Part shown: in pieces, positions 123 through 16,834 of the stretch
How positions within the stretch are numbered: position 1 is the first letter of the stretch
How the letters are laid out: each line of letters begins with the position of its first letter
DNA from: Fischerella sp. PCC 9431
Lineage (GTDB): Bacteria > Cyanobacteriota > Cyanobacteriia > Cyanobacteriales > Nostocaceae
Direction: 5' to 3'
Assembly (NCBI RefSeq): GCF_000447295.1
Contig: NZ_ALVX01000008.1
Location: forward strand, 1 to 32,884
DNA: 32,884 bases
Made by a program: the position numbers and the translations under genes
Notes under the pieces: generated by a model
What the model saw: only the letters and a program-made list of their open reading frames with translations
What the model was told of the DNA's origin: nothing
Databases searched by the model: none

Positions 123-2162
123 ATGTCTGTGAAGACAGTGACTTACGGTGAGGACTTTCTTGACAAGCTCAAATACTTGCGAAACCAAGAGGTTTCGACA
201 AGCCAGGAAACTACCCTGTCTAATATAGAGGAGCGTGACCGCAGAGCAGACCCCGTAACGATTTTGGCTAGGCGAATTGAGAACATTGCCGCGAGTGGCT
301 CTGGAGTGTCCTCCTTCGATCTCGAACGTGTCCTTGGGCGTAATGACCTACTGCCCATTAACTTCCTCCAAAGGGGGACGCTGGCTTCCCGTGCAGTTTG
401 CCGGATTTGGGTTGGAGATTTGTTTGGCTCAAATGGCAGCTGGGGGACTGGCTTTCTCGTATCTCCCCGCCTGCTACTCACGAATCATCATGTGATTGAA
501 TCACATGACGCGGCAACGCGGGCATCAATCCAGTTTGGCTACGAGATGGACACTAGCGGTAGAATTCGAGAAGGAAAAGCTTTTGCTCTGGCTCCTACTG
601 AAGCATTCATCACGGACTCTGAGCTTGATTTTACTCTGGTTGCTGTCGCATTAAAGTCGGACGATGGAGAAGCTAGCCTGGCAGATTACGGGTTTTTGCG
701 TCTTGACCCCACCCTTCACAAAGTAGAACCATTAGAATTCGTCACGATCATCCAACACCCTGATGGTCAACCCAAGCAAATTGCCATTCGGGAAAACAAA
801 GTCCTCAAGATTGGTGATCAGCAGGATGCTCTTAAGGACAATTTTCTCTGGTATGCCAGCGATACAGCCCCTGGCTCTTCTGGGTCTCCGGCTCTCAACG
901 ATAACTGGCAGGTGGTTGCCATTCACCACAAGAGTGTAGTAGAAACCCGCATCCATAACTCAGTTGAAGAAATTCAACTGACCAACGGCGAATGGGTTCC
1001 CAAATCAGAGGCAGAAAAGCTGAGTGAAAGTAAAATTAAATGGATCGCCAACGAGGGTGTACGGACAAGTAAAATTCTTGAGCAAGTAAATAAAATTCAA
1101 ACTCAACAGGACGGTTCTGCTTCTAGCTTGGTTCAAGCCTTCCTTGAAGATGCCAAGGGTATCCGGGTATTTCCAGGTACGACTCCCCGCGAAAGCGTCG
1201 TCACCTCGACAACCAGCACTCTTACTACTGCGCCAACAGAAGATGGTAAGAGCCGTCAGGAGAAAAAGCGCCCCCGACCAAGCTCTGATGGAAGTGTTCG
1301 TCCGTTAAGTTACTATCAGGGTCGCAAAGGTTATGATCCTGATTTTTTTGGGACTACCATTCCCCTACCAGAATTGACATCGACAGCCCTTGCTTTTGGT
1401 CCGGTCGCGCAAGTAGAGGGAACGCAGGACAATATCCTTCGCTATACGCACTTCTCGGTCGTCATGTGTTCTACCCGCCGCTTGGCGTTTTATACTGCTG
1501 TTAATATTGACGGGCGGCAGTGGATTGGACTGGAACGCAAGAACGACGAATGGTTCTTTGATCCTCGTATTCCTTTTAATTTGCAATTGGGAAACGATTT
1601 TTACGGCAATGAACCTGGAGGAAACTTTTTTGACCGGGGTCATCTGGTTCGCAGACAAGACCCTGTTTGGGGAGAAGAAACCACAGCAAGGATAGCCAAT
1701 AGCGACACGTTCCACTTCACAAATTGCTCTCCCCAGTACTTTCGGTTCAACCAATCGCAGCAGCTGTGGCAGGGGCTGGAAAATTTCATTTTGACCAACA
1801 CAGATCAAGATGATTTGTTGGCAAGTGTTTTCACTGGCCCCATCTTCCAAGAAACTGATATATTTCACCGAGGTATTCAAGTTCCCCAACTTTTTTGGAA
1901 AGTTGTTTTGGTTGTGGACGGACAGAGCCAGCTCTATTCCAGTGCCTATGTTGTTAGCCAGGAAAAATTCGTTAATGATATTCCCTTTGAGCGCAAGCCT
2001 GTTGGTGAATTCAATAACTTCCAAGTGTCTATTGCTAACCTGGAGACCAGAATCGGTTTGAAGTTCTGTGATCAAGTCCGTAAAGCTGATGTCTATACTG
2101 GTCCCTCTAGAGGCAAGCAATTGCGCGGTTTTAGTGACATTGAGCATCCTCGCCGCAAATAG
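123..2162 (+). CDS. Trypsin-like serine protease fused to DNA/RNA non-specific endonuclease
   Basis: This is a two-domain effector of 679 aa. Residues about 90-275 form a chymotrypsin/V8-fold protease: His123 in TNHHVI, Asp169 in SELDFTLVAV and Ser253 in PGSSGSPAL make a complete triad. A low-complexity Ser/Thr/Pro/Lys linker covers about 350-395. Residues about 395-670 form a NucA/Serratia-type nuclease with the DRGH motif at 504-507 (His507 is the general base) and the metal-site region NCSPQ...N543...W549...E553. No signal peptide or membrane segment is visible, so both activities should be cytosolic, unlike the usual secreted members of either family. The start ATG has only a weak GGAG about 14 nt upstream. 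The gene is alone and convergent with the SNF2 gene. The domain calls are firm; a role in biological conflict (protease-triggered nuclease) is inference. Confidence 0.88.
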   Translation: MSVKTVTYGEDFLDKLKYLRNQEVSTSQETTLSNIEERDRRADPVTILARRIENIAASGSGVSSFDLERVLGRNDLLPINFLQRGTLASRAVCRIWVGDLFGSNGSWGTGFLVSPRLLLTNHHVIESHDAATRASIQFGYEMDTSGRIREGKAFALAPTEAFITDSELDFTLVAVALKSDDGEASLADYGFLRLDPTLHKVEPLEFVTIIQHPDGQPKQIAIRENKVLKIGDQQDALKDNFLWYASDTAPGSSGSPALNDNWQVVAIHHKSVVETRIHNSVEEIQLTNGEWVPKSEAEKLSESKIKWIANEGVRTSKILEQVNKIQTQQDGSASSLVQAFLEDAKGIRVFPGTTPRESVVTSTTSTLTTAPTEDGKSRQEKKRPRPSSDGSVRPLSYYQGRKGYDPDFFGTTIPLPELTSTALAFGPVAQVEGTQDNILRYTHFSVVMCSTRRLAFYTAVNIDGRQWIGLERKNDEWFFDPRIPFNLQLGNDFYGNEPGGNFFDRGHLVRRQDPVWGEETTARIANSDTFHFTNCSPQYFRFNQSQQLWQGLENFILTNTDQDDLLASVFTGPIFQETDIFHRGIQVPQLFWKVVLVVDGQSQLYSSAYVVSQEKFVNDIPFERKPVGEFNNFQVSIANLETRIGLKFCDQVRKADVYTGPSRGKQLRGFSDIEHPRRK

Positions 2163-9900: not shown

Positions 9901-9936
9901 ACCAGTCGGCTATCAACTTCAGGCGGCTGGTTTTTG
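9901..9936 (+). terminator. Rho-independent terminator after the Rep-like gene
   Basis: ACCAGTCG (9901-9908) pairs with CGGCTGGT (9924-9931), with one G-U pair and a 15-nt loop, and a run of five T starts at 9931. It begins 26 bp after the stop codon. A 14-bp perfect palindrome AAGTATTAATACTT (9873-9886) overlaps the stop. Confidence 0.65.
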
Positions 9937-10156
9937 TTCTAGTTTAGTTCTAGGGAAAATTTAGTTCTAGGGAAAAAAGTTGAAAAAATTGGCTTTAAAG
10001 CTTTGTCCAGTATAGCTTTGAGCGTTAGAACAAAGTCTCTAATGGTTTTTGTTCTAGTTTAGTTCTAGGAAAAATTTAGTTCTAAAGAAAAAAGTTGAAA
10101 AAATTGGCTTTAAAGCTTTGTCCAGTATAGCTTTGAGCGTTAGAACAAAGTCTCTA
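9929..10156. repeat. Two 113-bp direct repeats, candidate origin region
   Basis: Copies at 9929-10041 and 10044-10156 differ at only three positions. Each unit is A/T-rich, starts with TTTGTTCTA and ends with its complement TAGAACAAA. In the first copy, a 17-bp tandem pair TTTAGTTCTAGGGAAAA occupies 9943-9959 and 9960-9976. The position right after a Rep-like gene and the A/T content fit a replication origin or copy-control region; that function is inference. Confidence 0.85.
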
Positions 10157-14777: not shown

Positions 14778-15533
14778 ATGAGCCGAATCATCGCAGTCTT
14801 TAACCAGGCGGGGGGAGTCGCCAAAACCACCCTTACCCAGAACCTGGGCTACCACCTAGCACAGCTGGGTCATCGTGTCCTGCTCATCGACATGGACCCC
14901 CAAGCCAGTTTAACTATTTTTATGGGCTTGGTTCCAAGAGAATTAGAGCAAACTGTCCACAGTGCCATAGTGGAGGAACAACCCCTGCCAATTCATGAGG
15001 GAATTTATGGCATGGATTTAGCTCCTGCCAATATCTCTCTCAGTACAGCAGAAATGCAATTGGTTAGTGCTTCCATGCGTGATTTCCGCCTTAAAGAAGC
15101 TATCGAACCAATTGAAGACGATTACGATTTTATATTAATAGATTGTCCTCCCAGCTTAGGGCTGTTAAGTTACATCTCACTTGTAGCCGCCACTCACGTT
15201 CTCGTCCCTCTGGAAACCCATTTCAAAGCCTTTGAGGGAACAGGCGAACTATTAAAAACGGTGGCGACAGTCCGCAACAAACCCAACCGTAAACTGCAAA
15301 TAGCTGGGTTTGTCCCGACAAAATACGATGCCCGCAACTCCCAGGACACTCGTACCTTAGCAGCCATCACCGAACAACTAGCTCTAGCCGGAATGGTCTT
15401 TGCCCCGATTCCTCGCTCTACCGCTTTTGTTGATGCATCAGAAGAGCGAATGCCACTTGCGGTTTACGAACCAAAACACCCATCTGTTGAAGTCTTGAAA
15501 AAAATAGCTGTTAGCTTAGAATCCTTAACATGA
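14778..15533 (+). CDS. parA: ParA partition ATPase
   Basis: This is a 251-aa P-loop ATPase for plasmid segregation. Walker A is NQAGGVAKTT (9-18), Walker A' LLIDMDPQ has Asp38 and Asp40, and Walker B is FILIDCPPS with Asp122. The residue normally filled by the signature Lys of deviant Walker A motifs (KGGxGKT) is Ala11 here; the NQAGGVAKTT form is one I associate with cyanobacterial ParA proteins. There is no N-terminal helix-turn-helix, so it is the small type Ib-like form in size but is paired with a full ParB. It overlaps parB by 4 nt (ATGA), indicating translational coupling. Shine-Dalgarno is weak (AGG about 15 nt upstream). Confidence 0.92.
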   Translation: MSRIIAVFNQAGGVAKTTLTQNLGYHLAQLGHRVLLIDMDPQASLTIFMGLVPRELEQTVHSAIVEEQPLPIHEGIYGMDLAPANISLSTAEMQLVSASMRDFRLKEAIEPIEDDYDFILIDCPPSLGLLSYISLVAATHVLVPLETHFKAFEGTGELLKTVATVRNKPNRKLQIAGFVPTKYDARNSQDTRTLAAITEQLALAGMVFAPIPRSTAFVDASEERMPLAVYEPKHPSVEVLKKIAVSLESLT

Positions 15534-16687
15534 GACGCACTAAAACCAACCAACCTCTTAAAAGTAAAATTGAAGTACCTTGGGACACCACAGGTAAATT
15601 AAATGCTGATTCACCAGTGTCTATTCCATTAGATCAGATTTCTCTTCCACCGAATCAACCACGCCGTTACTTTGACTCTGAGGCATTAAAGCAGTTAACT
15701 GAATCTATAAAACAACATGGCATTTTGCAACCTCTGTTAGTACGTCCCCTTGATGGAGAAAAACACGAATTAGTAGCAGGAGAGCGACGCTATCGTGCTG
15801 CTTTAAGTATTGGACTAAAGGTTGTCCCCGTCGTCATCAGAGAATTAGATGACAACGCAGCTTTTCAACTGGCACTTATAGAGAACTTACTTCGAGAAGA
15901 CCTTAACCCAGTCGAAGAAACCGAAGGCATCCTCCAATTGCTGGCTCTCAAACTAGGTCGAAGTCTTGAGGAGATACCGCCATTACTGCGCCGCTTGCAA
16001 CACGAACGTAAAGAGGCTGCTAAGTCTGACAATAACGTTATTGTCAAACAAGAATTGGACTCCGAAAAAACTTCCAATAACGTTATTGGAAAAGATGGAG
16101 ATGAGGATTTAGATGCTTCCAATAACGTTATTGGAAAAGATGGAGATGAGGATTTAGATGCTTCCAATAACGTTATTGGAAAAGATGGAGACGAGGATTT
16201 AGATGCTTCCAATAACGTTATTGGAAAGGATGGAGACAATAGGCAGTCAGACTCAAACCCAGTAAATCCAGAGCTAAAAATTGTTGAAGAAGTGTTTGAA
16301 GGCTTGGGTTTAATGACCTGGGAATCATTTGCTAACAACCGCCTGCCCTTGTTAAACTTGCCATCAGACATCCTTGAAGCACTGCGGAAAGGCTCCCTTG
16401 AATACACCAAAGCAAGAGCTATTGCTGCTATTCAGGATAGAGACGAACGAGTTGCCTTTTTAGAGCAAGCCATTAATCAAAACTGGTCTTTAAGCGAAAT
16501 CAAGCAATATATCAGTGAGAATAAAACCCCAAGTTCCACCCAAAAAACCGAGTCAAACAATTACAAAGAGCGCTTTACTGCTGCGACTACCAAGCTAAGA
16601 AAGTCGCGTATTTGGTCAGATCCGAAGAAGCGCAAACAGATAGAAAAATTGCTATTACAACTGGAGACGCTAACAAAGGAAGTGTGA
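15530..16687 (+). CDS. parB: ParB/Spo0J-like partition protein with internal repeat insert
   Basis: The protein has 385 aa. The N-terminal ParB/Srx nucleotide-binding domain is intact: IPLDQISLPPNQPRRYFD (about 32-49), LVAGERRYRAA with GERR at 84-87, and LIENLLREDLNPVEE at about 116-130, the CTP-binding boxes. A helical DNA-binding part follows, split by an insert at about 165-240 made of NNVI segments and 15-aa repeats ((S)NNVIGKDGDEDLDA). Family-like sequence resumes with MTWESFANNRLPLLNLPSDI and KARAIAAI. A Lys-rich coiled C-terminus ends the protein. The gene follows parA with an ATGA overlap. The insert DNA is an array of perfect palindromes (separate entry). ParB should load at parS and be moved by ParA. 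Confidence 0.9.
   Translation: MRRTKTNQPLKSKIEVPWDTTGKLNADSPVSIPLDQISLPPNQPRRYFDSEALKQLTESIKQHGILQPLLVRPLDGEKHELVAGERRYRAALSIGLKVVPVVIRELDDNAAFQLALIENLLREDLNPVEETEGILQLLALKLGRSLEEIPPLLRRLQHERKEAAKSDNNVIVKQELDSEKTSNNVIGKDGDEDLDASNNVIGKDGDEDLDASNNVIGKDGDEDLDASNNVIGKDGDNRQSDSNPVNPELKIVEEVFEGLGLMTWESFANNRLPLLNLPSDILEALRKGSLEYTKARAIAAIQDRDERVAFLEQAINQNWSLSEIKQYISENKTPSSTQKTESNNYKERFTAATTKLRKSRIWSDPKKRKQIEKLLLQLETLTKEV
16027..16226. repeat. Five perfect 20-bp palindromes inside parB, candidate parS array
   Basis: Site 1 (16027-16046) is TGACAATAACGTTATTGTCA. Sites 2-5 (16072-16091, 16117-16136, 16162-16181, 16207-16226) are TTCCAATAACGTTATTGGAA at an exact 45-bp period. All five are perfect palindromes sharing the core CAATAACGTTATTG. 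The outer arms differ between site 1 (TGA/TCA) and the others (TTC/GAA) but remain complementary. The 45-bp unit keeps the parB frame. Position inside a partition gene and palindrome length fit a centromere (parS) array; this role is inference. Confidence 0.9.
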
Positions 16688-16834
16688 GCGGATCTGCCAC
16701 TGCTCCCAGTCGTGTTCATAAGACCGCTCATAACGTTCTGGGCAACTATATATAATTGTTAAAAATTTTGTGGAAAACTGTCCGAGACTCCGGGATGTTG
16801 GCCAGTACCGAGAAAAAAGATTAAGTTGGATTGA

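Follow-up and report, generated by a model that had tools for sequence, protein, structure and literature searches.

The parB gene of the window, which here means the whole 32,884-bp stretch of DNA analysed (contig C6), contains five perfect palindromes, one TGACAATAACGTTATTGTCA and four TTCCAATAACGTTATTGGAA (Table 1). These palindromes are candidate sites for binding by the gene's own ParB product, and would represent an in-frame parS array located in the codons of a disordered linker; judged from sequence comparisons, the probability of this reading is about 0.88. A parS or ParB site within its own parB, as the original prediction had proposed, is favoured because sites found outside parB usually carry the half-site of their own parB, and because the sites within parB genes covary with the recognition helix of the encoded proteins. 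The window is taken to be a plasmid from a heterocystous cyanobacterium, since the closest named relatives of its ParB are encoded by Calothrix and Nostoc plasmids.

The arrangement of the array was confirmed as originally described: the four copies of TTCCAATAACGTTATTGGAA recur with a period of exactly 45 bp, and TGACAATAACGTTATTGTCA differs from them in its outer bases, in both arms at once, with pairing retained. No match to TTCCAATAACGTTATTGGAA was found in 100 dinucleotide shuffles, with up to three mismatches permitted. The window contains 13 AACGTT hexamers, of which the five in the array are flanked by 10 symmetric pairs out of 10 and the other eight by 3–7 out of 10; only the coding copies are perfect, and the window holds no perfect copy outside parB. 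The role of the imperfect site that follows the parB stop codon is uncertain; in some relatives perfect sites are located just 3' of parB. In the whole genome (7.17 Mb, eight contigs) the 14-bp core occurs six times, five of them in the window array, while the sixth belongs to another parB gene, on contig C3, where it is present as TGCCAATAACGTTATTGGCA. At the matching place, the parB of contig C1 carries a shorter palindrome, GACAACGTTGTC; the more distant parB of contig C2 has none. A parB remnant with stop codons, resembling the C3 gene, was also found (L051, G000:C1:6562135-6562500).

Table 1. Positions of the partition genes, the proposed parS sites and other features of the window
Feature	Position	Strand	Evidence or remark
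ORF with a trypsin-like peptidase domain and a DNA/RNA non-specific endonuclease domain	123-2162	+	
115-bp direct repeat	9928-10156		two copies, 97%
parA, 251 aa ParA-type ATPase	14778-15533	+	Pfam AAA_31, E 7e-51
parB, 385 aa, ParB/Spo0J type	15530-16687	+	ParB_N and HTH_ParB
Proposed parS site 1, TGACAATAACGTTATTGTCA, variant arms	16027-16046	.	45 bp 5' of site 2
Codons of the disordered linker, residues 168-244, holding most of the site array	16031-16261	+	AlphaFold2 pLDDT
45-bp tandem repeat, 3.7 copies, in frame	16071-16236	+	encodes ASNNVIGKDGDEDLD
Proposed parS site 2, TTCCAATAACGTTATTGGAA	16072-16091	.	
Proposed parS site 3, TTCCAATAACGTTATTGGAA	16117-16136	.	
Proposed parS site 4, TTCCAATAACGTTATTGGAA	16162-16181	.	
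Proposed parS site 5, TTCCAATAACGTTATTGGAA	16207-16226	.	
Codons of the recognition helix, residues 264-276, WESFANNRLPLLN	16319-16357	+	AlphaFold2 helix; Asn270 at 16337-16339
Imperfect AACGTT-centred site, 7/10 symmetric, role uncertain	16725-16744	.	37 bp past the parB stop codon
Helicase region, ORF of 310 aa	16835-17767	+	overlaps the next ORF
Helicase region, ORF of 369 aa	17698-18807	+	

The parA and parB genes overlap by 4 bp and form a predicted operon, in which ParB has the ParA partner of a type I ParABS system. Its assignment to the ParB/Spo0J family follows from the Pfam domains ParB_N (PF02195, residues 31-120, E 8e-32) and HTH_ParB (PF17762, residues 267-332, E 9e-12), both scoring above the cut-off, and its fold matches the Spo0J/ParB/Noc structures. 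The protein contains the motif-like stretches GERRYRA and ENLLREDLNP, which we take to be linked with CTP binding. In an AlphaFold2 model, a helix (residues 146-167) is followed by a linker (168-244) with a pLDDT of about 25, everywhere below 50, which is thus modelled as disordered, and then by the helices 247-259 and 264-276 of the helix-turn-helix. The model was built from 34 sequences with 70–85% identity to the first, and contains no DNA. Its mean pLDDT is 59 and only the helix-turn-helix and the C-terminal part are reliable, so it backs the disorder of the linker and the positions of the helices but not the detailed structure. Being disordered, the linker would tolerate codons dictated by a binding site, such as AAT AAC GTT ATT for Asn-Asn-Val-Ile.

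The region 3' of parB encodes an AAA-domain helicase, of about 960 aa in several relatives; in the window it is split over two overlapping ORFs and may therefore be interrupted or shortened. The direct repeat upstream of parA contains 17-bp TTTAGTTCTAGGGAAAA-like sub-repeats and stands after an ORF with a helix-turn-helix; it is possibly a replication origin with iterons.

ParB genes were collected by protein similarity from plasmid records, from 145 genomes of the family and from genome contigs, 60 loci from the 145-genome listing being the author's choice from its upper part, while some other loci came from a palindrome search. The resulting set comprises 132 distinct ParB ORFs in which both the N-terminal and the helix-turn-helix halves were matched; identical proteins were dropped and close relatives kept. 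Nine of the 132 rows bear the names of palindrome-fetched loci, some of which were also found by protein similarity, and the patterns used in the genome-contig scan included two linker peptides. Because of this palindrome-based fetching, the main statistics were redone on the 98 genes fetched by whole-protein similarity. In the null model codons were resampled with the protein sequence kept, and the linker was defined as the region between the N-terminal domain and the helix-turn-helix. Perfect linker palindromes of at least 12, 14 and 16 bp are present in 93, 89 and 87 of these 98 genes, against 15.2, 4.5 and 3.0 expected, so that symmetry is kept beyond what the protein sequence entails, as originally proposed; in the set of 132 the figures are 127, 123 and 121, against 24.6, 7.8 and 5.6. 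The density of palindromes in the 98 genes is 7.28 per kb in the linkers and 0.085 per kb in the rest of the genes. Five of the 98 (L054, L156, L160, L163 and L164) have no linker palindrome of at least 12 bp, and in a sixth exception, L165, the linker palindrome has another centre.

A perfect AACGTT palindrome in parB was found in 23 of 45 further distinct ParB-like ORFs, a set which includes genomes of the same family. Eight others have a near-perfect palindrome at the corresponding place, with 7 of the inner 8 pairs (centred AATGTT in L232), three (L264, L261 and L258) have a palindrome with another centre in the linker region, and the remaining 11, among them GC-rich ParBs of other classes, have no countable palindrome. 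Some of these GC-rich genes contain GC-rich palindromes at other places. In deeper cyanobacterial ParBs the linker palindromes are centred on AGCGCT (GTCCCGTAGCGCTACGGGAC and GGGGGAAGCGCTTCCCCC; at residue 182 in L264 and residue 181 in L261), and the recognition helix of L264, SFVRNRL, is the same as in two ParBs of the CCCGTAAC class. A palindrome inside parB is the rule, not a local oddity, in the cyanobacterial ParBs surveyed; the original prediction had regarded this arrangement as unusual, and precedents have been published in other bacteria. Relatives of ParB were absent from a first viral scan, no phage collection entry covered 80% of ParB, and a second viral scan gave three distant relatives (L271-L273), which leaves a viral origin unsupported.

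Nearly all linker palindromes (250/251) are centred on AACGTT, and each of these 250 is read as AAC GTT, encoding Asn-Val. The arms around this centre form 15 perfect 8-bp half-sites, which differ between lineages (for example, CCAATAAC, CCCATAAC, GGAGAAAC, CCCAAAAC, GGCATAAC, ATCAAAAC, CGAACAAC and CGGATAAC); natural site classes other than those of the window include CCCATAACGTTATGGG, TAGGAGAAACGTTTCTCCTA and TACGAACAACGTTGTTCGTA. Conservation of the NNVIG amino acids alone had been named as a finding that would speak against a DNA site; instead, the peptide varies with the arms (SNNVIG, THNVMG, RRNVSP, TQNVLG, ADNVIR) and the palindrome persists. Symmetry was also counted around all in-linker AACGTT hexamers, with no symmetry required for inclusion. 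In the 147 distinct 26-mers obtained, 95, 93, 88, 88, 81, 59 and 67% of the pairs from ±4 to ±10 are symmetric, against 62, 79, 44, 53, 46, 31 and 55% of the shuffled pairs, and symmetry at ±11 to ±13 is at or below chance, which defines a unit of 20 bp. Spacings between sites are multiples of three, the commonest being 45 (41 times), 81 (38), 90 (11) and 135 bp (10), and linker length correlates with the number of sites (r 0.69).

Copies are also present outside parB. The sequence CAATAACGTTATTG was found in 41 of the 145 genomes of the family and a reversed control pattern in three. A 102-kb contig of a relative contains eight full 20-bp copies, one in parB and seven outside it. On seven contigs, 12 of 25 outside core copies lie beyond every ORF of at least 60 aa in a mechanical ORF list, in which a listed ORF does not make a copy within it coding. 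Contig G096:C32 has a parB with TGCC/GGCA arms, and matching symmetric arms are present in two of its four outside copies. Seven annotated plasmids were scanned whole. Outside parB, perfect AACGTT-centred palindromes of at least 14 bp are absent from NZ_CP117767, NZ_CP054693 and NZ_CP040303, while AP018241, NC_011730, AP025022 and NC_014504 have in total seven extra perfect AACGTT-centred sites, of which, according to gene tables that are incomplete, six lie wholly between annotated genes and one spans a gene end. In AP018241 the outside site has its centre 88 bp 5' of parA. Since neither the window nor three of the seven annotated plasmids has a perfect outside copy, the evidence from such copies comes from other relatives.

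Distinct outside sites that are 16 bp or longer and lie near a parB number 56, sites of one plasmid not being independent; 48 of them share a half-site with the nearest parB, against a permutation mean of 10.2 and a maximum of 20 in 2000 permutations. Two of the eight mismatches (L205 and L254) are clear conflicts, with sites of a different class which would break the residue-270 rule described below if read by the ParB of that locus. Two others (L118 and L232) involve genes without a perfect 8-bp half-site, and four (L005, L035, L143 and L248) are symmetric variants. In several of the 23 further ParB genes with a perfect AACGTT palindrome, another with the same half-site precedes parB by some 650–850 bp, about where parA is expected to begin. 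One TGCCTATAACGTTATAGGCA palindrome is present downstream of parB in each of two plasmids of the CCAATAAC class (L189 at +1829 and L182 at +1245 from the start of the parB frame), with an arm that differs from that of the class, yet is symmetric. A site may also be located centrally in a longer perfect palindrome, of 62 bp in L255 (-818) and 48 bp in L079 (+934, both from the start of the parB frame); these might be terminators, cruciforms or assembly artefacts. G101:C44 has three full 20-bp sites, at 47518, 49718 and 54961, and what the G101 genome has by way of a ParB relative is remote (best E 3.8e-5).

The site thus has properties expected of parS: it is a palindrome of about 16–20 bp, occurs in one or several copies near parAB, and is conserved as DNA apart from coding, as indicated by the codon-resampling excess and by the copies between annotated genes on sibling plasmids. 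Both its arms and its centre differ from the consensus of the canonical chromosomal parS, TGTTTCACGTGAAACA; the window site is different from canonical parS, with the same kind of protein as reader.

The recognition helix of these ParBs has the form SF-x1-x2-x3-RL, in which x3 corresponds to Asn270 of the window ParB. In 126 genes with a site, x3 follows the base at ±4 without exception: T occurs with Asn (82/82), C with His (4/4), and A with Ser, Thr, Ala or Lys (40/40). Of 271 alignment columns, residue 270 has the highest normalised mutual information with this base, and the sole other column that explains all of the variation, column 171, is itself encoded by the palindrome. On a tree built from the N-terminal domain only, the base class changes 9 times, the residue class 9 times and the combined class 9 times; when the changes are placed on branches in one possible way, base and residue change together eight times, and the ninth change of each lies on a different branch. 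The rule also holds in 22 of 22 further ParBs, in 21 by the site in parB and in one (L232) by an outside site. The pooled count is 145/145 for genes in which the helix was parsed and parB itself contains a site, four of the 149 genes with a site being left out because their helices were unparsed. A weaker trend concerns x2, where Arg occurs with G at base 5 and C at base 6 (4/4) and is absent in 20 genes with G5 and A6. The rule extends to another phylum: among six controls from outside the cyanobacteria, the parB of a Thermus thermophilus plasmid (L274) contains the palindrome TCCCCGCAACGTTGCGGGGA in frame, read as RNVAG, with His accompanying C, and Arg accompanying G at base 5. The other five controls have no AACGTT palindrome in parB, and the Acetobacter control has two AACGTT palindromes just 3' of parB.

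The original prediction offered as its alternative a series of RNA hairpins in the mRNA; in the parB transcript these would control translation or decay. The transcript does fold far better than its shuffles (z -9.8), as that of any palindrome array must, but the central AACGTT, part of which would form the loop, is almost invariant, non-complementary pairs from ±4 to ±8 show no enrichment in G-U (9/80, with 2/12 expected by chance), and copies exist outside parB, nearly half of those checked lying beyond any ORF. This explanation was therefore rejected as very improbable. Rickettsia palindromic elements are mobile palindromes inserted in genes, and the occurrence of repeats both within a coding region and scattered on plasmids would be in keeping with such an element here. 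However, the linker and frame occupied in parB are always identical, and the arms covary with ParB; a mobile element is hardly conceivable and was rejected, given that outside copies have only about 20 bp in common, with mostly different flanks. Selection for the NNVIG peptide, the DNA symmetry merely following codon use, agrees with the invariable in-frame Asn-Val centre, but has a practically negligible chance as the whole explanation in view of the excess over codon resampling and of flanking residues that differ by class while symmetry persists. The peptide motif alone was rejected on these two grounds, and with copies also lying between genes it cannot be the only cause.

The site class follows the plasmid, and any co-inherited gene could thus in principle encode the reader. 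Another plasmid-encoded dimeric DNA-binding protein is nevertheless an improbable candidate, because residue 270 is the best of the 271 ParB columns and stays in step with base ±4 while each changes 9 times in the tree. It is also possible, although unlikely, that ParB binds the sites chiefly for regulation, by autorepression or silencing around parAB or as a transcription brake, and that the partition site is elsewhere. The own-half-site palindromes 650–850 bp upstream of parB (L114, L252, L257, L227, L229, L245 and L249) would suit this role, the upstream place having been matched to an annotated parA in AP018241 (L114) only. On the other hand, no other perfect site is present on the window plasmid, many sites are dispersed at distances of kilobases from parAB, and a tandem array of five copies is closer to a centromere such as sopC than to an operator. 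Regulatory and centromere roles are compatible, and this explanation overlaps with the preferred one, in which the palindromes form a parS array read by ParB. A point against the preferred explanation is that one strain may have several contigs, each with its own parB, which share a site class, as do three contigs of G102 and several each of the Scytonematopsis MAG and of Nostoc paludosum FACHB-159; sharing within a strain would predict cross-talk and raises the question of incompatibility.

If the array is parS, a ParB dimer would read each 20-bp palindrome through its two helix-turn-helix domains, with Asn270 facing ±4. ParB would load on the array as a CTP-dependent clamp and spread from there by sliding along the plasmid, with ParA setting its position as in other ParABS systems. 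Sites may be gained and lost through in-frame tandem duplication in the linker. We infer ParB binding, clamp loading and array-dependent partition for the window plasmid. With parB carrying its own parS in frame, each gene would display its own DNA-binding specificity. On balance we lean towards the view that in cyanobacterial plasmids the partition protein and the centromere form one heritable unit, in which sites track the recognition helix by compensatory changes and multiply by in-frame duplication, and that new plasmid partition specificities can in this way originate and spread, each as an allele of a single gene. It has long been asked how DNA-binding proteins and their sites can evolve jointly and still recognise each other. 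To this question these genes bring about 145 natural pairs of protein and site, often from close relatives, with the site within the gene of the presumed reader and with a simple, testable code relating residue 270 to base ±4. The arrangement would also yield centromere sites for plasmids of cyanobacteria and indicate which of these plasmids have a partition specificity in common.

The Bacillus subtilis site parS-359 is of the common parS type, and the sopC array of the F plasmid stands outside the sopB coding sequence. The megaplasmid parABSm system of Thermus thermophilus HB27 resembles the one described here in having a palindrome, parSm, within the parBm coding sequence; according to the available parts of the reports, ParBm binds the palindrome of its own gene in gel shifts, and this was taken as parS (PMC4409726, PMC10085754). 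In the same parts parSm is a single 14-bp site with another sequence, AAGGACGCGTCCTT, and neither a tandem array nor covariation with the recognition helix is described. In B. subtilis, parS-359 is likewise located within the parB gene (spo0J) (PMC4442127); unlike the sites in the window, it is one of ten chromosomal sites (PMC4409726) and not an in-frame array. The F plasmid sopC consists of twelve 43-bp tandem repeats holding ParB-binding inverted repeats (PMC6238139); the repeat length is close to the 45 bp found here, whereas sopC is a separate array. The canonical ParB-parS and Noc-NBS pairs share with the window system a helix-turn-helix dimer and a palindromic site. Residue 270 aligns with an Asn of Spo0J and Noc. 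In Caulobacter ParB this Asn is N178, which makes contact with parS; it is conserved across ParB and Noc, whose consensus sites both have T at the position matching ±4 (PMC7383237). In contrast to these canonical pairs, residue 270 and base ±4 change together here, the centre is AACGTT, the arms are diverse, and a long linker precedes the helix-turn-helix. A search of open-access literature, as far as its texts were available and with subscription journals mostly outside its scope, brought up neither parS arrays in the parB genes of cyanobacteria nor this recognition code. Within that literature, parS inside parB is already known, whereas the in-frame array, its near-universality in the surveyed cyanobacterial ParBs and the readable code are apparently new.
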